Origin: Myxococcales bacterium
Lineage (GTDB): Bacteria > Myxococcota > Myxococcia > Myxococcales > Myxococcaceae
Length of the DNA: 64,000 nt
Reading direction: 5' to 3'
Assembly (NCBI GenBank): GCA_020846875.1
Contig: JADLDB010000067.1
Span: 62,001-126,000, forward strand
Below the pieces are notes generated by a model, which saw only the letters and a list, made by a program, of their open reading frames with translations, ran no database searches and was not told the DNA's origin. This document shows positions 21,811-32,243 of the stretch, in pieces (positions within the stretch are counted from its first letter, which is position 1; each line of letters opens with the position of its first letter). The position numbers and the translations under genes are program-made.

Positions 21811-23022
21811 ATGTCCGCGCGCGACCTCGAGCTCGTCCTCTTCGGCGCCACCGGCTTCACCGGCCGCCTCGTGGCCGAGTACCTCGCGGTCCACGTCCCT
21901 GACGGCGTGCGCGTCGGGCTGGCCGGCCGAAGCCAGCAGAAGCTGGAGTCGCTCCGCGCCGGCCTCCCCTCGAGGGGCCGCTCCTGGCCCCTGCTCGAGG
22001 CCGACAGCGCCGACGCTGACTCGCTCGACGCAGTCGCCCGCCGCGCGCGCGTCCTCTGCACCACCGTGGGGCCCTATGCGAAGTACGGCCTGCCCGTGGT
22101 CGCCGCCTGCGCGAAGGCCGGCACGCACTACACGGATCTCGCCGGAGAAGTGCAGTTCATGCGCGACTCCATCGACGCCTGGAACGCCGAGGCCCAGCGC
22201 ACCGGCGCGCGGATCGTCCACTCCTGCGGCTTCGACTCCATTCCCTCCGACGTGGGGCCCTGGCTCTTGCACCACGAGCTCGGCGCGATGAAGCGCGTCA
22301 CCTACGTGGTGGAGGCGCTCAAGGGCGGCTTCTCGGGCGGCACCTACGCGTCGATGCTCAACGCCCTCGAGGAAGCAGGGAAGGACCGGCGGAAGCTCCG
22401 GGCGCTCGCGGATCCCCATGCGCTCTCGCCGGACCGCGCGAAGGAGCCCGACCTGGGGCCGCAGCGGGATCAAACCGGCTTCTCGTACGACGGCTTCGTG
22501 GGCCGGTGGACCGGCCCCTTCGTGATGGAGCCGATCAACACCCGCGTCGTCCGCCGCACCAACGCGCTGCTCGGCTACGCCTACGGCCGGAATCTCCGCT
22601 ACCGGGAGGTGTCCGGCATCCCGCGGGGGCTCAAGGGGCTGGGCGTCGCCGCGAGGCTGGCGGGCCTGGGCGTCGCGTCGCTGGGCCTCCTCTTCTGGCC
22701 CACCCGCCGCCTGCTCGCGCGGGCGCTCCCGAAGCCCGGCGAGGGCCCGTCCGAGGAGGCGCGGCGCACGGGTCGGCTGCGCGTCCGCACCTTCGGAGAA
22801 GCGGAGGGCGGCCGGCGCGCCAGCGTGGTGATCGAAGGGCAGGGCGATCCCGGCTACCAGTTGACCGCGATGATGCTCTCGCAGGCGTCGCTGGCGCTGG
22901 TGCTCGATTTGGACCGCCTGCCGAAGCGGGCGGGCGTGCTGACGCCCGTCACTGCGATGGGAGACGTCCTGGTGGAGCGGCTGCGCCGCGCAGGCATGAC
23001 GCTGACGGTCGAGAGTCCGTGA
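21811..23022 (+). CDS. saccharopine dehydrogenase-like / trans-acting enoyl reductase family protein
   Basis: The 403-residue protein opens with a Rossmann motif, LVLFGATGFTGRLVAEYL, and continues with VGLAGRSQQKLESL, CTTVGPYAKYGLPVV, GTHYTDLAGE and IVHSCGFDSIPSDVGPW, the signature set of the family that contains Mycobacterium Rv2449c and Rv2953. Rv2953 is a trans-acting enoyl reductase for polyketide lipids; other members are annotated as saccharopine dehydrogenase-like oxidoreductases without a known substrate. A hydrophobic stretch (LGVASLGLLFWPT) lies in the C-terminal half. No polyketide synthase is nearby, so the lipid connection is inference from family only. It is divergent from accC. 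Confidence 0.82.
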   Translation: MSARDLELVLFGATGFTGRLVAEYLAVHVPDGVRVGLAGRSQQKLESLRAGLPSRGRSWPLLEADSADADSLDAVARRARVLCTTVGPYAKYGLPVVAACAKAGTHYTDLAGEVQFMRDSIDAWNAEAQRTGARIVHSCGFDSIPSDVGPWLLHHELGAMKRVTYVVEALKGGFSGGTYASMLNALEEAGKDRRKLRALADPHALSPDRAKEPDLGPQRDQTGFSYDGFVGRWTGPFVMEPINTRVVRRTNALLGYAYGRNLRYREVSGIPRGLKGLGVAARLAGLGVASLGLLFWPTRRLLARALPKPGEGPSEEARRTGRLRVRTFGEAEGGRRASVVIEGQGDPGYQLTAMMLSQASLALVLDLDRLPKRAGVLTPVTAMGDVLVERLRRAGMTLTVESP

Positions 23023-23025
23023 GCG

Positions 23026-23499
23026 TCACTTGTCGCAGGGCACCGCGGTGCAGGCGCCCCACATGCCCGTCCGGTTCGTCTTCGCCTCGGACTCCAGGGT
23101 GTCGAACTCCACGGCGCGCGACTGGCCCCCCGGCGCGATGTACAGGCTGCAGGCCAGCCCGCGCTTCACCAGCTCGCTGTTGAGCTCCGTACCGCCCTGC
23201 TTCACGTAGGCCAGCGTGCGGCCGAAGCGGTCCTTGCAGGCAGCCTCGTCGTAGGAGAGTTGCACCTGCGCGCCCTCGATGAGGCCGCGGGTATACGCCG
23301 CCGCCTCCTGCCCGTAGCAGTCGTTCTTCCCGCCGGTCGTCTCGGGCGTGTCCACCAGCAGCAGGCGCACCCGCGTCCCGTCGGACAAGTCGAAGGTGTC
23401 GCCGTCCACCACCGCCTGCACCGTGCCGGACGACGGCCCGCACATGCTGCCGCCGCAGCCGCTCGCTGCGAGGGCCACGCCGAGGGCTGCCGCTCTCAC
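23026..23499 (-). CDS. secreted thermonuclease-like lipoprotein (SNase fold)
   Basis: The 157-residue lipoprotein (ASGC lipobox at 12-15) consists of one staphylococcal nuclease domain. DGDTF is at 32-36; RLLLVDTPE places Arg45, Asp50 and Glu53 at the positions of SNase Arg35, Asp40 and Glu43, and RFGRTLAYV supplies Arg94 for Arg87, so all catalytic residues are present. It also has extra cysteines (CGGSMC, CYGQ, AACKD, ACTAVPC) that suit an oxidising compartment. It should degrade DNA or RNA outside the cytoplasm with calcium. Its start overlaps the stop of the lamin-tail gene by 4 nt, so it is the last gene of the surface nuclease operon. Confidence 0.88.
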   Translation of the reverse strand: MRAAALGVALAASGCGGSMCGPSSGTVQAVVDGDTFDLSDGTRVRLLLVDTPETTGGKNDCYGQEAAAYTRGLIEGAQVQLSYDEAACKDRFGRTLAYVKQGGTELNSELVKRGLACSLYIAPGGQSRAVEFDTLESEAKTNRTGMWGACTAVPCDK

Positions 23500-25262
23500 C
23501 CGCCGTCCAGGCCGGCGTCTGGCTCGCCCGCGTCCGGGACCACGCCGCTGCAGGGCACGTTGACCAGGCCCGGCGTGCCGCGATCGCCCATCGCTCCGCC
23601 GTAGCGCACCCCCGCGGGCGTGACGCAGAGGTTGCCCGGCACGTCGTTGTCGGCGGGGTCAGTCAGGCCCGCGCTGAGCTGCGAGGACGCGCCGGGTGAC
23701 GAGCCCGAGTACGTCACCGAGTCCAGCACGCCGCCGTCGTACCCGGTGACGGCCAGCGTGTGGCCCCCGGAGTTGGTGAGCCCGAAGCTCAGCACGCCCG
23801 ACAGCGCCGGCAGCCCGCCGTTCTGCAGGGGGTCCGTGTTGCGCCCGAAGACGGCGAACGTGTTGGCCGTCACCGCCAGGCAGTTGGGCGAGGACAGCCG
23901 CGTGGTGGAGGTGTCGTGCGACAGCGCCACCCCGTTGAGGTCCGCGTCGGCCTTGAAGAGCACCTCGATGAACTCGCCGTTGGTGTCGCTGACGGCGTTG
24001 GGATCCGGCAGCCACTCGGTGATCACCACGTCGCCCGGGTTGGGCCGCACCACCGGCCGCACCGCGAGGCTGATGGGATCGATGCACTCGTCGGGGTCGG
24101 TCATCGTCCCCGAGTCGGGCGGCGGGCAGTCGGGGTTGGCCACCTTGGGGCTGCCGAAGTCGCCGCCGCCGTCCGAGCCCCAGCGGAACTGTGCCTTGCA
24201 GAAGTTGTCCGGGCTGTCGTTGGAGCCCGGATCCAGCTTCGTGGGATCGAGCTGCCAGGCCCGGCCGGACGAGGAGGGGTAGAGGGCGATTTCGTCGATG
24301 CCGGCGTCGCCGCGCGCCAGGCCGATCCGCTGGTTGGTGGTGTCCGCGAAGGACGTGCTGAACAGGGCCGTGGGCGTGGGCAGATCGCCGTTGACGAAGG
24401 TGTCGGCGCTGCGGGCCAGCAGGGCGTACTCGCCCGAGTTCACCCGCAGGCAGTCCCCGGAGGAGATCTTGCTGTCGCCGGTGGAGGTGTAGAGGGTGAG
24501 ATCGTTCAGGTCCACCGGCGCGCGGGCGAGCAGCTCGATCCACTCGCCGGTGGTGTCGCTGGCGGCCGCCGGGTTGGCCAGCACCTCGGTGATCACCAGG
24601 TCGCCCGGCTGCGGCGCGGTGATGGGCCGCACGGTGCCGTTGTCTACGCAGGTGCCGGTCATCGCCTCGGGCACGCACACCGGGTTCGCGGCGCCCGGGG
24701 TGCCCGCGGAGGCGCCGAAGTACACCATGCCCGCCGGGGTGTCGCACCAGGCAGCCTCGCTGTCGTTGGTCTCAGCGTTGGGATCGCTGGCCCCGTCCAG
24801 CATGCGGCTGCGGTTGGCCTTCGCGGCGACGGTCCAGCTCATCTCGTCGAGGGTGATCATCCCGCAACGCATGGTCACGACGCCGCGGGCGTTGCCCAGC
24901 GCGCCCAGGGAGTCGGCGTAGGAGTAGTTGATCCACGCAGGGTTGGGCCCGCTGCGGATGTCGCCGAGCGTGAAGGAGCTGCGGGCCGGCACCGATCCCG
25001 AGCGGATGGTGTGCGACTTGAGCCCCGAGCCGTCGGTGTCCTTGAACTGGATCACCATGCCCTTGAGCTCGAGCGGCGTGCCCAGGGTGTTGAAGATCTC
25101 GATCCACTCCTTGCCGGTGTCCGTGCCTTCGGGGTCGGCCATCACCTCGGTGATCACCACGTCTCCGGCCTTGCGGCCCACGCAGGGATCGGTGGTGTTG
25201 GTGGAAGGCCCACAGCCACACCACACGCCCGCTGCGATGGTCGCGAGAAGTACGCGTCTCAT
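23496..25262 (-). CDS. lipoprotein with three lamin-tail domains
   Basis: The 588-residue protein has a signal ending near CGCG (15-18) and then three lamin-tail (LTD) modules. Each begins with a GD(V/L)VITE motif: AGDVVITEVMADPEG at 32-46, PGDLVITEVLANPAA at 219-233 and PGDVVITEWLPDPNA at 409-423; the first two are followed by EWIE and the third by EFIE. Each ends in a Cys-bearing segment such as GTPGAANPVC or GSPKVANPDC. LTDs are immunoglobulin-like domains that in bacteria often accompany secreted nucleases and ComEC-like proteins, and DNA binding has been proposed. It lies 6 nt after the SNase/OB gene and overlaps the second SNase gene, so the three are one translation unit. A DAG-rich tail closes the protein. 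Confidence 0.85.
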   Translation of the reverse strand: MRRVLLATIAAGVWCGCGPSTNTTDPCVGRKAGDVVITEVMADPEGTDTGKEWIEIFNTLGTPLELKGMVIQFKDTDGSGLKSHTIRSGSVPARSSFTLGDIRSGPNPAWINYSYADSLGALGNARGVVTMRCGMITLDEMSWTVAAKANRSRMLDGASDPNAETNDSEAAWCDTPAGMVYFGASAGTPGAANPVCVPEAMTGTCVDNGTVRPITAPQPGDLVITEVLANPAAASDTTGEWIELLARAPVDLNDLTLYTSTGDSKISSGDCLRVNSGEYALLARSADTFVNGDLPTPTALFSTSFADTTNQRIGLARGDAGIDEIALYPSSSGRAWQLDPTKLDPGSNDSPDNFCKAQFRWGSDGGGDFGSPKVANPDCPPPDSGTMTDPDECIDPISLAVRPVVRPNPGDVVITEWLPDPNAVSDTNGEFIEVLFKADADLNGVALSHDTSTTRLSSPNCLAVTANTFAVFGRNTDPLQNGGLPALSGVLSFGLTNSGGHTLAVTGYDGGVLDSVTYSGSSPGASSQLSAGLTDPADNDVPGNLCVTPAGVRYGGAMGDRGTPGLVNVPCSGVVPDAGEPDAGLDGG

Positions 25263-25268
25263 GTCGAA

Positions 25269-26402
25269 TTACTCTCCCTCGTCCTGCTTCTCGGAGTCCC
25301 CGGCCGGGGTGTCCGTCGTCAACAGCTCTTCCAGTTGCTCGCTGGGGGCCAGCACCTGGCCCGGCAGCGACACCTGCACCTGAAGGTGATCGAGCCCGCG
25401 CGCGTCGCGGTACTTCTGCACCACGCCCCGCACCTGCACGTACTCGCCGCGCTTGAACTGCAGCCCGGTGTTGAGCAGCACGTCCTTGTCGAAGAAGACG
25501 ACGTCGAAGCTGGAGCTGCGGTTGCGCGACAGCTTCACCACCGACGGCCCGCTCTCCCCCATACGCACGTCCTGCACCGCGCCCAGGATCACCGCCTCCT
25601 GGCCCAGGCGCTGCTCCAGCTTGAGCATCGCGTCCCAGCGGGTGAGCGCGATGTGGGACTCGGGGTGGGTCTGCTGTTCCTTCTCGAAGCGGGTGATGGC
25701 GGCCTCGCGCTCGGCCCACCAGCGCAGCCGCTCGTCGTAGTCGTCGTAGTGCATCTTCCCCGGCGCCCAGATGCCGCGCTTGGCCTCGATGGCTTCCTTC
25801 TGGGCCTCGACGAAGTCCTTGTGGAAGCGGCGGCTGCGGCCGTACTTGGTGAAGTAGGGGCTCATGCCGGCGCGCACGCACTCCACGTTGTAGTTCACCC
25901 ACTGCCCGTTCTTCTTGGCGAAGATGTACGCGAGGTAGCGGCCGTAGAAGTCGCGGATCTCTCCGGGATGATCGCGCTCCAGCCGCACCTGGGTGACGCC
26001 CTCGAAGAAGCCTTCCGCGTAGTGCTTGGCGTCTTCCCCCAGGGGCGTGGCCATCTTCACCGGGCGCGGCGAGCTGCCCCGCAGCTTCTTCTTGTACGCC
26101 TCCCAGCCGGCGGCGAAGGCCTGGCGCTCCCAGTCCTTCTTGAAGGTCTCCTCGGTGTCGATGGCCAGCAGGCGCAGGCTGGCCGACAGCCCCTTCACCC
26201 GCACGGTGTCGCCGTCGATCACCGCGGAAGGCCCGTCGAAGGGGAACTCCCCCAGCTCCAGGGTGACGACCTCGAGCCGCTTGAGCAGCGCGGCCGCCTC
26301 GTTGCGCGTGTAGCGCTTGGAGTCCTCGGTGGTGCTGCACGACGCGAGCGCCACCAGCGAGGCGACGAAGAGCAAGCGTCGGGAAGGGACCGGGATCAGC
26401 AT
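25269..26402 (-). CDS. SNase-like lipoprotein with C-terminal OB-like domain
   Basis: The 377-residue lipoprotein (lipobox ALASC at 18-22) has an SNase domain with DGDTV at 63-67, RLLAIDTEE giving Arg77, Asp82 and Glu85, and DFYGRYLAYIF giving Arg155; these match the SNase catalytic set. Compared with a simple SNase it has a 50-residue insertion between the two motifs (about 95-140). A charged helical linker (205-265) leads to a beta-rich region (about 268-350, including KRGEYVQVRGVVQKY) that looks like an OB fold, a common nucleic-acid-binding module. The role is probably a surface nuclease with its own binding domain. It starts 49 nt after the HhH barrel gene and ends 6 nt before the lamin-tail gene. 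Confidence 0.85.
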   Translation of the reverse strand: MLIPVPSRRLLFVASLVALASCSTTEDSKRYTRNEAAALLKRLEVVTLELGEFPFDGPSAVIDGDTVRVKGLSASLRLLAIDTEETFKKDWERQAFAAGWEAYKKKLRGSSPRPVKMATPLGEDAKHYAEGFFEGVTQVRLERDHPGEIRDFYGRYLAYIFAKKNGQWVNYNVECVRAGMSPYFTKYGRSRRFHKDFVEAQKEAIEAKRGIWAPGKMHYDDYDERLRWWAEREAAITRFEKEQQTHPESHIALTRWDAMLKLEQRLGQEAVILGAVQDVRMGESGPSVVKLSRNRSSSFDVVFFDKDVLLNTGLQFKRGEYVQVRGVVQKYRDARGLDHLQVQVSLPGQVLAPSEQLEELLTTDTPAGDSEKQDEGE

Positions 26403-26451
26403 GCGGCGAGACGAAGAAGCGTAGGGAGTTCGGCCTTATAAATCGAGTGCG

Positions 26452-28629
26452 TCAGAAGGACGCGCGCACGTCCAGCATCAGCCGGTTCTCGGGGTTGGGG
26501 GTGCGGGCGCCCACGACGGTGCCGTCCACGTCCACCAACCCGACGGTAGAGAGGCGCTTGTCCAGCCAGAAGAACAAGTCGTAGCGGAAGCCGACGCGCG
26601 CGTAACGGCCGAGGCGGAAGGTGGCCTCCAGGTAGGTCCAGAGGTTGGTCTCGAGGTACGCCGGATCGCTGAGGTCCTGGTCCAGGTAGCGCGTCTTGAG
26701 GTGGAGGTTGAGCCAGTCGGTGGGGGTGTAGCGGGCCTCGAACCAGAGCTGCAGATCGTTGCGGAAGCTCTCCTGGTATTTCACGTCGTCGGTCCAGGTG
26801 AACCAGGCCTGGGTGGCGAGCATCACCCGCTTGTGGGGGTTGAACTCCAGGCGGCCGGCGATCCGGTAGAGATCGCCGTTGCAGGTGTAGGGATCGCCCT
26901 CGACGTAGAGGATGCTGCCGGCGGCGCACCGCCCCCGCTGGGAGGACGTGAGGTTGCGGTTGCGCAGGTCGACCCACAGGGACGGCTGGAAGAGCTGCCA
27001 CCCGGTGAAGTTCGCGCGGGTGAGCGTGTAGAAGTTGGGGACCCAGGCGGGCGCGGCGGGCGTGCCGTAGGGCGCCACCCAGAAGTCGTTGCGCGTCTTG
27101 AACTCCCAGTTCTTCCCGAGGCGGACGAAGTAGCGCAGCCGAAGGCCCAGCTCATTCTTCGCGCGCAGGCCCTCCAATTCGTCCGGCGCGGCGATGGGGC
27201 GGCCGAAGGGGTTGTGGAACTTGTCGTCGTAGTAGCGCAGGGACACCTCCAGTTCGTGGCCCTTGGGGCTGAAGGTGGTGCGCTGCTCCACGCCGAAGCC
27301 GCCGCCGCCGCCGATGGCGCGATCGAAGCTGCGGGCGCCCTCGAGGTAGAGGTTGACCGGGCCTACGGTAACGTGCCCGTTGACGCCCACCGCCCCGAAG
27401 GCGCCGCCGTTGGGGTAGCGGCTCCATTCCTGGAAGTCGAGCTCCATGGGCTGGACGTGGAAGAAGGGCGCGGCGCCATAGCCGGTCACCCCCAGGCTGA
27501 TCTTGTAGTTGGGCCTCACCGTGACGTGCGCGCCTCCGGCCAGCTCGTCGAAGAGGTACGGCAGGGTGCTGTAGATGAGCCGCGAGCTGTTCGAGGGGAT
27601 GTAGACGGGCGGCGCCTTGCACGCCGCGCTGGTGAGGTGCGGATCCTCGCAGGTCCGGCGATCGTAGAGCTCGTACTGGTAGATGGAGCGCGCCTGGTAC
27701 GAGAGGAAGCCGTACACCGACATGGTCGTCTCCCCGCCCAGGGAGATGTCCTCGAAGCTGCCGGCCACGCCCCGGAAGGTCTCGCGCCAGTCGAAGTCGG
27801 GGGTGATGTACAGGTTCTTCTCGCCGGCGCTGCACTCTCCGGAGAGCGGGAGATCGGGGTTGGACAGCTTGCAGGTGCGGACGTTCTCGATGGGCCGGCG
27901 GAAGTCGTCGGTCAGGTAGATGCCCGACGGCGTCGAGCGGCGCGTGTTGTCTAAGGTGACGCGCTCCCCGAAGCCGATGGTGTAGGTGCCGGCGACCACC
28001 TTGCGGTGCCCCGAGTTCCACATGGCGAAGAAGCGCGGGACGTGCAGCGCGTAGCCGAAGCCGGTGCTGATCAGCGCGTCCAGCGCCGGATCGTACGTGG
28101 GCGTGGCGGGGATGCGCCGGGTGGTGATCAACATCAGCCCCGCGGACAGATCCCACGGCCCCTTCAGGCGCGCGTGGAGCAGGGTGGGCGGGGGCGTGTT
28201 GTCGGTGGTGGTGAACCGGGTGACGGAGCGGAACTTGCCCGAGACGGGGAGCAGCGGGCGGGTGCTGTCGATGCGGATGAAGGGGGCGATCTCGATCAGC
28301 TGCTCGCCGGTGATGGCGCCGGCGGCCACCAGCTCGGCGGGATCGTCGATGCGGCCCTTGGCCGTCCGGTACTCGATGATCGCGTCGCAGTCGGCGTAGG
28401 TGAGTCCGGGCAGGTCGTACAGCTGATCGCGGCCGGCGGAGTTGAGCTCCACCCCCTCGCGCAGCACCTCCAGCAGGGTGTCGAGCTGATCGCTGGTGAT
28501 GTCACCGCGCTGCTCGAGGGTGAACAGGTCGTCTTCGTCCTCGACGATGATCTGCTGCTCGAAGACGGCGCCCTGGGCGCTGGCCGCGAGGAGACCGAGG
28601 ACGAAGACGAAACGGGCCGGGCGCGACAA
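26452..28629 (-). CDS. outer-membrane beta-barrel-like protein with N-terminal helix-hairpin-helix domain
   Basis: The roughly 725-residue product has a signal peptide (about 1-20, ending SAQG), then a ComEA-type helix-hairpin-helix region at about 59-100: VELNSAGRDQLYDLPGLTYA, DCDAIIEYR. HhH motifs bind DNA without sequence preference. From residue 130 to the end the sequence alternates polar and aromatic residues in repeated strands (LWVDLRNRNL, LWFEARYTPTDWLNLHLKTR) and ends in Phe (VRASF), the terminal signature of Gram-negative outer-membrane barrels. It could capture or pass DNA at the surface. No ATG or GTG start is available after the preceding gene; the TTG at 28629 fits the signal peptide. 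It is followed by the nuclease and lamin-tail genes in one operon. Confidence 0.8.
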   Translation of the reverse strand: MSRPARFVFVLGLLAASAQGAVFEQQIIVEDEDDLFTLEQRGDITSDQLDTLLEVLREGVELNSAGRDQLYDLPGLTYADCDAIIEYRTAKGRIDDPAELVAAGAITGEQLIEIAPFIRIDSTRPLLPVSGKFRSVTRFTTTDNTPPPTLLHARLKGPWDLSAGLMLITTRRIPATPTYDPALDALISTGFGYALHVPRFFAMWNSGHRKVVAGTYTIGFGERVTLDNTRRSTPSGIYLTDDFRRPIENVRTCKLSNPDLPLSGECSAGEKNLYITPDFDWRETFRGVAGSFEDISLGGETTMSVYGFLSYQARSIYQYELYDRRTCEDPHLTSAACKAPPVYIPSNSSRLIYSTLPYLFDELAGGAHVTVRPNYKISLGVTGYGAAPFFHVQPMELDFQEWSRYPNGGAFGAVGVNGHVTVGPVNLYLEGARSFDRAIGGGGGFGVEQRTTFSPKGHELEVSLRYYDDKFHNPFGRPIAAPDELEGLRAKNELGLRLRYFVRLGKNWEFKTRNDFWVAPYGTPAAPAWVPNFYTLTRANFTGWQLFQPSLWVDLRNRNLTSSQRGRCAAGSILYVEGDPYTCNGDLYRIAGRLEFNPHKRVMLATQAWFTWTDDVKYQESFRNDLQLWFEARYTPTDWLNLHLKTRYLDQDLSDPAYLETNLWTYLEATFRLGRYARVGFRYDLFFWLDKRLSTVGLVDVDGTVVGARTPNPENRLMLDVRASF

Positions 28630-28699
28630 AGCGCAGGCGACGCTACACGCTCGGGGGCGCCGTTTCGATGGCTTCCTCGATCGCCGCAGCCGCTGCGCG

Positions 28700-29044
28700 T
28701 CAGGCGTCGTCGTCCAGGGCGAAGGCGGTGAAGAAGGCGTCGGGCTCGGGCAGCCCGGTGAGGAAGACGAAGTCATGCTTCGCGCGGCAGAGATCGCGCC
28801 GGAAGTCCCCGAAGCAGGGCTCGTTGATGCCGCCGTCCACGCGCGGCTCACCGTCGCAGGCGTCGTGGGAGTTGACCGAGTGCGCGTGGATGAGGCCCTT
28901 GCGATCGAGAAAGCCGCGGGCGTTCACCTCGCGCGCGGTCTGGAACACGACGCCCGGCTTCCAGGCGCCCTTTGCCACGTCGGGCGGCTTCGAGGAGCAC
29001 GCGGCGAAGACGGCACAGCACACGAGCGCGAGACGAGACGGCAT
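28700..29044 (-). CDS. truncated PHP-like lipoprotein, first gene of the nuclease operon
   Basis: The 114-residue product has a lipobox signal (FAACSS, Cys15-16 region) and then the beginning of a PHP-type metal-binding domain: GLIHAHSVNSHDACDGEP, CFGDFRRDLC and AKHDFVFLT. In full-length relatives in other myxobacteria, as I recall the family, the sequence continues with further metal ligands for several hundred residues. Here it ends 23 residues after FVFLT with an acidic tail (FALDDDA), so the catalytic domain is incomplete. Either this is a decayed gene or a short derivative kept for binding. It lies 71 nt before the HhH barrel gene on the same strand. Confidence 0.6.
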   Translation of the reverse strand: MPSRLALVCCAVFAACSSKPPDVAKGAWKPGVVFQTAREVNARGFLDRKGLIHAHSVNSHDACDGEPRVDGGINEPCFGDFRRDLCRAKHDFVFLTGLPEPDAFFTAFALDDDA

Positions 29045-29176: not shown

Positions 29177-31108
29177 GTGGATCTCGACTCACTGCTGTCC
29201 GACTTGAAGGACTCGCTCCCTTCGACCCCCCGGCCCCTCGAGGAGACGCACCGCCCCGACTGGGAAGAGGCCACCCTTGTCTCCGGCGAGCAGCCGGTCC
29301 CGGCCGAGCCTCAGGCCGATCTTCGGCTCTCGCTCAGCCCGCCCGTCGCCGTCGACGCGCCCGCCGACGCCGACCGGGGGGATCTGGTGGTCGTCGGGGA
29401 GCTGGGCAAAGGCGGGATGGGCGTCGTGCTGCTCGCCCGCCAGCCGTCCCTCGATCGCGAGGTGGCCGTCAAAGTCCCCCTGCGCACCGCCAGCGAGAGC
29501 ACCGTGCACGCGCTGGTCCGCGAGGCGCGCACCACCGGCTCGCTGGAGCACCCCGGCATCGTCCCCGTCCACGCGCTCGCCTTCGACTCCGCCGGCACCC
29601 CGGCGCTGGTGATGAAGCGCATCGAAGGCGTCTCCTGGGCCACGCTGATGAGGGAAGCTGGCCACGGCGCCTGGCGCTTCGTCACCGCCGGCCGCGATCG
29701 CCTCGAGGCCCAGGTGCAGCTCCTGATGCAGGTCTGCAACGCCGTGGCCTTCGCGCACCGGCAGGGCGTGCTGCACCGGGACATCAAGCCCGCCAACGTG
29801 ATGGTGGGTGAGTTCGGCGAGGTGTACCTGGCCGACTGGGGCGTGGCCACGCGCAAGCCGCTGCCCGGCGAGGAGCGTAGGAAGGGGCTGGTCGGCACGC
29901 CGCTGTACTTCGCCCCGGAGATGGTCACCGGCGACGACGCGCAGATGGATGAGCGCACCGACGTCTACCTGCTGGGCGCAACGCTGTACCACGCGCTGTG
30001 CGGGTGGCCGCCCCACGCCGCGAGGAACCTGAAGGAAGCCCTCGCCCACGCCTGGGCCGGCGAGGTGCGCCCCATGCCTCAGGAGATCCCCGCCGAGCTG
30101 GCGGAGGTGATCTCCAGGGCCCTGGCGCGCGATCCTCCCCAGCGCTACCCGTCCGCCACCGCGCTGCGCGACGCCCTGGCCGAGTTCCTCCGGCACAGGG
30201 GCTCCAGCCGCCTCGCCGCCGCCGCGATGGAGCGCCTCGCCGCCCTCGAGGCCGAGCTCAAGCCCGCCAACCCGCCGAGGGAGCGGATCGCGCCCCTGGT
30301 GTCCGAGTGCCGCTTCGGTTTCCTTCAGGCGCTCAACGAATGGGCCGACAACCCGGTCGCCCGGGACGGACTCCAGCGCTGCATCGTCGCCGCCGCCTGG
30401 TTCGAGGTGCGCACCGGCAACGCGTCCGCCGCCCGCGCCTTGATGGCCGAGCTTGCGAAGGTGCCGGACGAGCTCAAGACCGCGCTGCGGACCCTGGAGC
30501 TCGATGACGAGCAGAGCCTGGTGCGCAAAGCCCACTTCGAGCACCTGGAGCGCGAGCTCGACCCCCGCGTGGCGATTCGCCAGCGGATCCGGCTCTTCCT
30601 GGCGCTCTCAGGCGTCATCCTGCTGGTCACCGTGCTGCCGTCGCTGTTGCCCGTCTGGCCGCAGCTCGAGGCGTGGCTGGGGCCGTGGCTGCTCGTCGGC
30701 AAGCTCTTGCCGGCGTCGCTGACGCTCCTGGTGGCGATCGTCCTCGGGCGGAGGAGTCTGTTGGGCACGCGGCTCAACCGGCGGATCAGCTGGCTGCTGG
30801 TGTTCGTCCTGCTCGCGGTGACCGTCAACCGGACCGTCGGCGTCTTCCTGGGCATCCCTCCCGAGAAGGTGCTGATCCTCGATCTCGTGGTGGGCGCGGC
30901 GCTCAGCTCCGGTCCGGCCCTGCTGTTCCACTGGGGCTTCTTCATCTCGCTGGGCTGCAACATCCTCGGGGTGATCGTAGCGCTGATCTGGCCGGAGCAC
31001 GTCCGGTGGATCTACGGGGCCGCGGCGGCGAGCGCCCTCTCGGGCCTCTTGATCACCTGGACCACCTGGCGCTCGGAGTTCACCCCGCCCATCGATCGTG
31101 CGCGCTGA
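29177..31108 (+). CDS. membrane Ser/Thr protein kinase with C-terminal multi-helix domain
   Basis: The 643-residue protein has an acidic N-terminal segment, then a Hanks-type kinase domain from about residue 70: GELGKGGMGVV, Lys99 in VAVK, HRDIKPANV with Asp202, and GTPLYFAPEM. The magnesium-binding DFG is DWG (220-222), which keeps the essential Asp. After the kinase comes a helical region (about 340-470) and then at least four membrane helices (LFLALSGVILLVTVLPSLL, LTLLVAIVLG, ISWLLVFVLLAVTV, ALLFHWGFFISLGCNILGVI). The topology differs from the other kinase in this window: here the membrane part is the sensor or anchor and no large periplasmic domain follows. The GTG start lacks a good ribosome site. 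It is divergent from the nuclease operon. Confidence 0.88.
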   Translation: MDLDSLLSDLKDSLPSTPRPLEETHRPDWEEATLVSGEQPVPAEPQADLRLSLSPPVAVDAPADADRGDLVVVGELGKGGMGVVLLARQPSLDREVAVKVPLRTASESTVHALVREARTTGSLEHPGIVPVHALAFDSAGTPALVMKRIEGVSWATLMREAGHGAWRFVTAGRDRLEAQVQLLMQVCNAVAFAHRQGVLHRDIKPANVMVGEFGEVYLADWGVATRKPLPGEERRKGLVGTPLYFAPEMVTGDDAQMDERTDVYLLGATLYHALCGWPPHAARNLKEALAHAWAGEVRPMPQEIPAELAEVISRALARDPPQRYPSATALRDALAEFLRHRGSSRLAAAAMERLAALEAELKPANPPRERIAPLVSECRFGFLQALNEWADNPVARDGLQRCIVAAAWFEVRTGNASAARALMAELAKVPDELKTALRTLELDDEQSLVRKAHFEHLERELDPRVAIRQRIRLFLALSGVILLVTVLPSLLPVWPQLEAWLGPWLLVGKLLPASLTLLVAIVLGRRSLLGTRLNRRISWLLVFVLLAVTVNRTVGVFLGIPPEKVLILDLVVGAALSSGPALLFHWGFFISLGCNILGVIVALIWPEHVRWIYGAAAASALSGLLITWTTWRSEFTPPIDRAR

Positions 31109-31118
31109 CCTGAGGGGG

Positions 31119-32243
31119 CTACTCCACCGAGACCAGCCGCACCTTCTTGTAGATGCGGCGATCGAGCGGCAGCCGGGCGTCGATGAAGCCGAGGGCCTCG
31201 TCGAACTCGAAGGTGAAGACAGGCATCGGCGGGGTGATGGAGACGATCAGCTCGAAGCTCCACAGGCTGGACAACTGCTCGCGCCCCATCAACGCCTCCT
31301 CCGGCGGCGCCGGCAGCTTCTGGGCGGCGGCCTGCACGTCCTTCAGCGCCTCCTTGTCCACCTGGCTGTCGTTGGACGGCTGCACCAGCTCCACCCTCAC
31401 CAGCTTGCCCGAGGAGTCCTGCACCACGCGGATGATCGCCCGCCGCGTCGCCTTGAAGGCCGACGCCAGCTCCCGCGAGAGCTCCTTGCGCGCCTCGAGA
31501 TCGATGCCCTGGATCCCCTGGATCCGATCGTTCGGCTGCGGCCGGCGGTTGGGCGCCAGCTGCTCCGAGTCGATGGGAGAGCCACCGCGCCCGTACGCCG
31601 AGGCGCGATCCGCCCACAGCTCGTTGTAGATCTTCGAGTTCTGAACGAACTGCTCGCCCAGGCCCTTGAGGCCTGACTTCGCCACCCGCTCCGCGTCCCA
31701 GGTCTTCAAGAGCGCCTTGCCGAGCTGCGAGTAGTACGGGTGCACCAGCCCGCGCTCCACCCTGCCCCGGCCCAGCGTCTCCTTCGCCAGCTCGTCCACC
31801 AACTGCTCCGGGGATCGCGGGGTGATCGAGCCCGGCCTCGCCTCGGCCTCCAGGGTGCCTGCGTCCAGCGACACCGTGAAGGAAGAGCCCGGCAGCAGGA
31901 GCACCCGGCTCCCCAGGCTGCCCGGTGGTGGGATGGCCCTTGGCGCGTCGGCCAGCGGGTTGTCTGCAAGCGGCACGTCCGTCTCCGCCGCCTCGGCCTG
32001 TCCGGTGGACGGCGGTGGCACGGCCTTCGTCGTCACCTCCTTCTTCGGGCCAGGCGGTGGCTCGGCCTCCGGCGGCGGCGCTCTGGGCGCGAGGTCGACG
32101 TACACCAGCGTCCCGTCAGGCAGCCGCAGCGGCTCCACCGGCAGGGCAGGGCGCGTCACCACCCAGCCCACGAAGGCCAGGTGCAGCGCCAGGCTGCCCA
32201 GCAGGGCCCACAGCCCGGCTCTGGAGGTAGGGGGGCGTCGCAC
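31119..32243 (-). CDS. TonB-like energy-transducer protein
   Basis: The 374-residue protein has a single N-terminal membrane helix (LWALLGSLALHLAFVGWVV), a Pro-rich periplasmic spacer with PPPEAEPPPGP and a C-terminal TonB-type domain at about 255-345 (RAIIRVVQDSSGKLVRVELV, QPSNDSQVDKEAL, then SLWSFELIV). TonB proteins couple the ExbB/ExbD motor to outer-membrane receptors; related TonB-domain proteins in myxobacteria also serve gliding and export machinery. A central helical region (LVHPYYSQLGKALLKTWDAE) is unusual for classical TonB and may be a partner-binding insertion. ExbB/ExbD genes are not in this window. It converges with the kinase gene, 10 nt between stops. Confidence 0.78.
   Translation of the reverse strand: MRRPPTSRAGLWALLGSLALHLAFVGWVVTRPALPVEPLRLPDGTLVYVDLAPRAPPPEAEPPPGPKKEVTTKAVPPPSTGQAEAAETDVPLADNPLADAPRAIPPPGSLGSRVLLLPGSSFTVSLDAGTLEAEARPGSITPRSPEQLVDELAKETLGRGRVERGLVHPYYSQLGKALLKTWDAERVAKSGLKGLGEQFVQNSKIYNELWADRASAYGRGGSPIDSEQLAPNRRPQPNDRIQGIQGIDLEARKELSRELASAFKATRRAIIRVVQDSSGKLVRVELVQPSNDSQVDKEALKDVQAAAQKLPAPPEEALMGREQLSSLWSFELIVSITPPMPVFTFEFDEALGFIDARLPLDRRIYKKVRLVSVE

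Follow-up and report, generated by a model that had tools for sequence, protein, structure and literature searches.

A conserved locus of an outer-membrane barrel, a lamin-tail lipoprotein and SNase lipoproteins in Myxococcota, likely part of an envelope machine handling nucleic acids

Background

In SusCD-type nutrient complexes, a large outer-membrane barrel cooperates with lipoproteins at the surface and with a degradative enzyme. Lamin-tail domains (LTD), in combination with nuclease parts, are known from DNA-degrading enzymes and loci (PMC6085458, PMC8289736): the extracellular nuclease ExeM of Shewanella consists of an LTD, an OB-like part and an EEP nuclease (PMC6085458), and the DNA-degradation loci of Ca. 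Izemoplasma, which are linked to the use of extracellular DNA, cluster LTD and nuclease parts (PMC8289736). Enzymes of the DNaseI family carry either an LTD or a helix-hairpin-helix (HhH) domain (PMC4486849).

The locus described here has elements of each of these systems and matches none of them. It shares with ExeM the LTD, OB-like and nuclease parts of an envelope nucleic-acid enzyme, but ExeM is a single polypeptide of the cytoplasmic membrane fraction, with another nuclease fold and without a barrel (PMC6085458); the Ca. Izemoplasma loci encode one large protein together with transporters, in an organism without an outer membrane, and likewise lack a barrel (PMC8289736). The PADLOC model C3a212 ('SNc+LTD') also associates an SNase with an LTD, whereas here the two are separate lipoproteins encoded with a barrel, and only the SNase part is matched. 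A large barrel paired with lipoproteins, which are probably exposed at the surface, and with a degrading enzyme recalls SusCD, but no TonB-receptor or SusD domain was matched in the proteins of the barrel locus. The initial annotation knew of no described system with a barrel, an LTD protein and an SNase, and our search of the open-access literature, which leaves subscription papers outside its scope, found none either.

Results

Layout of the locus

The window, i.e. the whole stretch of 64,000 nucleotides that was analysed, is part of contig C67 in a genome of 7.06 Mb. On its minus strand, four closely spaced genes, all with predicted exported products, occupy positions 23026-28629 and are preceded by a shorter frame:

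23026-23499, minus strand: SNase lipoprotein, 157 aa (Pfam SNase 6.2e-20; PDB match to staphylococcal nuclease 6.5e-19; catalytic residues conserved)
23496-25262, minus strand: triple LTD lipoprotein, 588 aa, mature pI 4.2 (Pfam LTD 1.1e-21, three stretches; model matches lamin Ig domains)
25269-26402, minus strand: SNase-OB lipoprotein, 377 aa (Pfam SNase 3.4e-11; OB match weak; lipobox Cys22 invariant)
25371-25589, minus strand: C-terminal OB-fold-like domain of the SNase-OB protein (PF01336 2.4e-4, below the cut-off; matched in 14 of 21 members)
25764-26225, minus strand: SNase domain of the SNase-OB protein (catalytic Asp, Arg, Glu and Arg kept in 21 of 21 aligned members)
26452-28629, minus strand: HhH-barrel gene, 725 aa, TTG start; signal peptide, HhH domain and then a predicted outer-membrane barrel of about 24 strands (Pfam HHH_3 2.1e-8; AlphaFold2 pLDDT 85.6, pTM 0.84; conserved C-terminal F)
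26458-28242, minus strand: barrel region, residues 130-724, with three loops predicted to face outward and carrying conserved cysteine pairs (AlphaFold2 and conserved columns)
28273-28458, minus strand: HhH domain, residues 58-119, hairpin LPGLT instead of GhG, net charge -7 (Pfam, motif and charge comparison)
28700-29044, minus strand: relic of a PHP-like lipoprotein gene, outside the conserved operon (two-piece match to full-length relatives)

The barrel and SNase-OB genes are separated by 49 nt and the SNase-OB and LTD genes by 6 nt, the LTD and SNase genes share a 4-nt overlap, and the PHP-like frame ends 70 nt from the barrel gene, provided that the latter starts at the TTG at 28629. Position, strand and spacing of these five open reading frames agree with the initial annotation, and the export that it proposed for all their products is consistent with their signal-peptide and lipobox patterns, which are also conserved among relatives. 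A protein kinase gene (29177-31108) upstream and a saccharopine-dehydrogenase-like gene (21811-23022) downstream are both oriented opposite to the operon, which consequently ends at 23026 and, the relic aside, starts with the barrel gene. A search for sigma-70 promoters found none, and is uninformative in so GC-rich a genome. No conserved nucleotidase or nucleoside transporter lies beside the locus among the loci compared.

A TonB_2-domain protein is encoded at 31119-32243 of the window; it occurs near the barrel gene in the genera g1, g4, g16, g25 and g26 and is absent there in other genera. As it accompanies the locus in close relatives only, it was rejected as a conserved upstream partner, and since the Myxococcus group has a different upstream gene (ATP-grasp-like by eye), neither gene belongs to the operon.

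The PHP-like frame

The initial annotation had counted the PHP-like frame as a fifth member of the system. Within its 114 residues, however, positions 1-96 and 97-112 match parts of full-length relatives that lie about 143 residues apart, the remaining C-terminus of the intact relatives has been lost, and the intact genes lie elsewhere in related genomes and do not adjoin the barrel gene. By this comparison the frame is a deletion relic and no working member of the operon, so that a system of five genes finds no support. The name 'PHP-like' reflects a motif alone, because the Pfam PHP profile matches neither the frame nor an intact relative, and the frame does not combine the PHP profile with the complete metal motifs of PHP phosphoesterases. 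The family to which it belongs, PHP-like lipoproteins with a HAHSVYSHDACDG motif and without a Pfam match, is intact in relatives (L078-L085).

The barrel protein and its HhH domain

An AlphaFold2 model built from 38 locus proteins confidently predicts an outer-membrane barrel, and the initial description of an HhH-bearing barrel thus holds in both parts, the HhH domain matching HHH_3 with 34.6 bits (cut-off 27; matched in 26 of 38 members). From the strand order of the model, both protein ends and the short turns would lie on the periplasmic side, whereas the three long loops that hold the conserved cysteine pairs C253/C266, C327/C337 and C568/C583 (alignment columns) would point outward. Among solved structures, Foldseek retrieved ushers and TonB receptors at low TM-scores only; none of them was accepted as the identity of the barrel, as this is a generic similarity which does not allow a specific barrel family to be assigned. 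None of the 38 members has a Pfam match to a plug and TonB-receptor barrel of the SusC type, nor to a DUF560 14-stranded barrel with N-terminal TPRs of the Slam type. HhH-barrel proteins of similar size probably also exist in Bacteroidota.

The closest solved relative of the HhH domain, found by profile search, is ComEA. The features expected of a DNA-binding HhH domain are nevertheless missing: the hairpin reads LPGLT or similar, without GhG, in 37 of the 38 barrel members, the domain is acidic rather than basic in the window protein, and Myxococcus- and Corallococcus-like rows have a shorter second half of the domain. A standalone protein resembling ComEA, taken as a control from a sister genome, carries the motifs GVG and GFG and a charge of +9. 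Separate HHH_3 proteins are present in genomes with as well as without the barrel. Nucleic-acid binding by the HhH domain is therefore unlikely, judging from its charge and hairpin.

The LTD lipoprotein

Three stretches of the LTD lipoprotein match the Pfam profile (77.7 bits), and in Foldseek its model matches the Ig domains of lamin A/C and B1, so that its first description as a triple lamin-tail lipoprotein stands. Nucleic-acid binding by this protein is doubtful on sequence grounds because of its strong acidity, though binding of DNA through bridging metal ions is possible for it as well as for the HhH domain. LTD domains are common elsewhere in the same genome (18 hits), in contrast to SNase genes. 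Another contig of this genome (G000, C169:87312-104529) has a row of six LTD-domain genes, all on one strand and with long open frames. The modules of family f11 (L116-L120) and of L122 have an additional short LTD gene in front of their SNase-OB gene.

The SNase lipoproteins

Both SNase assignments are backed by PDB sequence matches in addition to Pfam scores of 44 bits (SNase-OB protein) and 72.1 bits (SNase lipoprotein) against a cut-off of 21, and the domain was detected in all 21 aligned SNase-OB members. The OB fold proposed for the first of the two proteins reaches a sub-threshold match only. Asp21, Arg35, Asp40, Glu43 and Arg87 (SNase numbering) are intact in both nucleases of the window, as had been noted at the outset, and these residues are invariant across relatives except for Asp40 in one of 24 SNase lipoproteins. 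This conservation supports the predicted cutting of nucleic acids by both lipoproteins; of the 'binding and cutting' machine first envisaged, it is the predicted cutting that persists.

The genome has only two SNase genes, both in the operon. Five further module-bearing genomes that were sampled have one SNase gene each, also inside the operon, whereas 14 sampled barrel-less genomes of Myxococcaceae have none. In all six module-bearing genomes checked, the SNase genes are confined to the locus: the SNases of this family are dedicated to it. Apparent fusions of an SNase to a large protein in Corallococcus-like genomes were rejected, the long frames being noise of reading high-GC DNA.

Conservation across Myxococcota

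The barrel is present in 86 of the 145 order genomes and in 108 of the 195 genomes of the phylum sample, the latter count including a few weakest matches that are HhH fragments only. Among 44 order-level and named loci (window included), an LTD gene adjoins the barrel gene in all but one, where the contig ends, and only seven lack an SNase lipoprotein gene, four of these being cut off before it could appear. Of 18 deeper loci, 15 have an adjacent LTD gene and 13 an adjacent SNase gene, and the barrel gene is last rather than first in all but one. On the barrel tree, the barrel-first order maps as a single change (98/98 support) with the block intact, three truncated or unresolved loci being set to barrel-last by default. 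Within the clade of Myxococcus-, Corallococcus- and Cystobacter-like genomes, most rows have no SNase-OB gene.

Barrel and SNase lipoprotein occur together in 80 of the 145 order genomes, the barrel alone in six, the SNase alone in one and neither in 58 (Fisher p 2.5e-32, uncorrected for kinship), and they lie no more than 6 kb apart in all 68 genomes that have both on one contig. The pairwise distances of barrel, LTD and SNase proteins are correlated with one another (r 0.68-0.86), as expected from joint vertical inheritance. No relatives were found on plasmids or viral contigs. By these sequence comparisons the locus is a vertically inherited core locus of the main Myxococcaceae genera. An arrangement conserved across the phylum is far beyond chance, and the scattering of genes that would have spoken against a common role is not seen.

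In six genomes (G125-G127, G129, G188 and G191) barrel and LTD lipoprotein are present without an SNase lipoprotein at the locus, which indicates that the pair has some SNase-independent role. Two relatives of genus g23 with small genomes (L072 and L073; 2.1-2.7 Mb) retain barrel and LTD but lack SNase genes altogether, and their barrel rows are placed on a very long branch.

Discussion

The conserved neighbourhood, the co-occurrence and the fact that gene order changed only once, leaving the block intact, strongly support the barrel, LTD and SNase genes as one functional unit; the unit first proposed survives without its fifth gene. As barrel, LTD lipoprotein and SNases have been kept together in myxobacteria and their relatives, an undescribed envelope machine that handles nucleic acids is likely. 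The locus is explained most simply by an envelope complex with nuclease activity. Building on the linkage of the genes, the modelled barrel fold, the lipoprotein signals, the catalytic residues and the dedication of the SNases to the locus, we give a nearly even chance to a more specific reading, namely that the four products form a single outer-membrane nuclease complex for extracellular nucleic acid, probably for scavenging. The barrel would act as a large channel or as a scaffold, its small HhH-derived domain lying in the periplasm, and the LTD lipoprotein, its constant partner, would probably dock the enzymes on it. One or two SNase lipoproteins would cleave DNA and RNA reaching the cell, and the fragments would enter, probably via the barrel, and supply phosphate, nitrogen and nucleotides, e.g. 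from lysed prey. We infer the surface location, the physical complex, its substrate, the import of products and the nutritional purpose. Against this reading speak above all the six genomes in which the barrel-LTD pair stands without an SNase lipoprotein at the locus, and also the lack of a conserved neighbouring nucleotidase or nucleoside transporter and an HhH domain and LTD protein that do not resemble DNA binders. A bolder version, in which LTD and SNase lipoproteins, working on a barrel with about 24 strands, form a dedicated, previously undescribed machine of the whole phylum for the capture, cutting and import of nucleic acids, core to myxobacteria and a nucleic-acid counterpart of SusCD, is doubtful at present.

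Sequence does not separate the three purposes named in the initial annotation, nutrition, defence and DNA uptake, although the existence of separate ComEA-like HhH proteins and the vertical inheritance of a core locus argue against the latter two. The alternative that survives best, if rather improbable itself, is that the barrel serves as a surface-display device, carrying or holding the lipoproteins of the operon at the cell surface, and is no nutrient channel. As in Slam clusters, a barrel with a small periplasmic domain adjoins lipoprotein genes, but Slam is a 14-stranded DUF560 barrel with TPRs, and here about 24 strands are combined with an HhH domain (PMC5449769). The persistence of the barrel-LTD pair without an SNase suits display, and fits a docking role of the pair equally.

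It is less probable again that the operon belongs to a transformation apparatus, in which DNA would enter through the barrel, be trimmed by the SNase and be held by the HhH domain. Transformation of Riemerella requires an HhH protein of the envelope and a barrel protein, which are separate there and fused here (PMC8459023), and the HHH_3 match and the relationship to ComEA point the same way. On the other hand, the fused domain is acidic, has lost the hairpin glycine and is shortened in one clade, there is also a separate protein resembling ComEA whose motifs are intact, and two nucleases would destroy the incoming DNA.

An envelope defence that cuts phage DNA during entry is quite improbable. 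The nucleases are predicted envelope proteins and both match the PADLOC model C3a212, but the match spans their SNase part only, the barrel and LTD proteins match no model, the locus holds no complete defence-system gene set, and it is neither patchy nor carried on mobile elements. A toxin of the SitA type, transferred from cell to cell by outer-membrane exchange, is a very improbable identity for the SNase lipoprotein: myxobacterial lipoprotein toxins with nuclease domains exist, but sitAI loci consist of polymorphic toxin-immunity pairs and are often found on mobile DNA (PMC8546572), whereas this protein is small, non-polymorphic and present once per genome, and no conserved immunity gene follows it.

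Conclusions

The locus defines a large barrel family, the barrel part of which is without a Pfam model, and the HhH domain of this family is an example of one that has lost the marks of DNA binding. To our knowledge, the uptake of nucleic acids from lysed prey by Gram-negative predators is not well worked out. If the four products do form an outer-membrane nuclease complex, the locus, which is amenable to gene deletion in Myxococcus xanthus, would bear on how such predators take up the nucleic acids of their prey.
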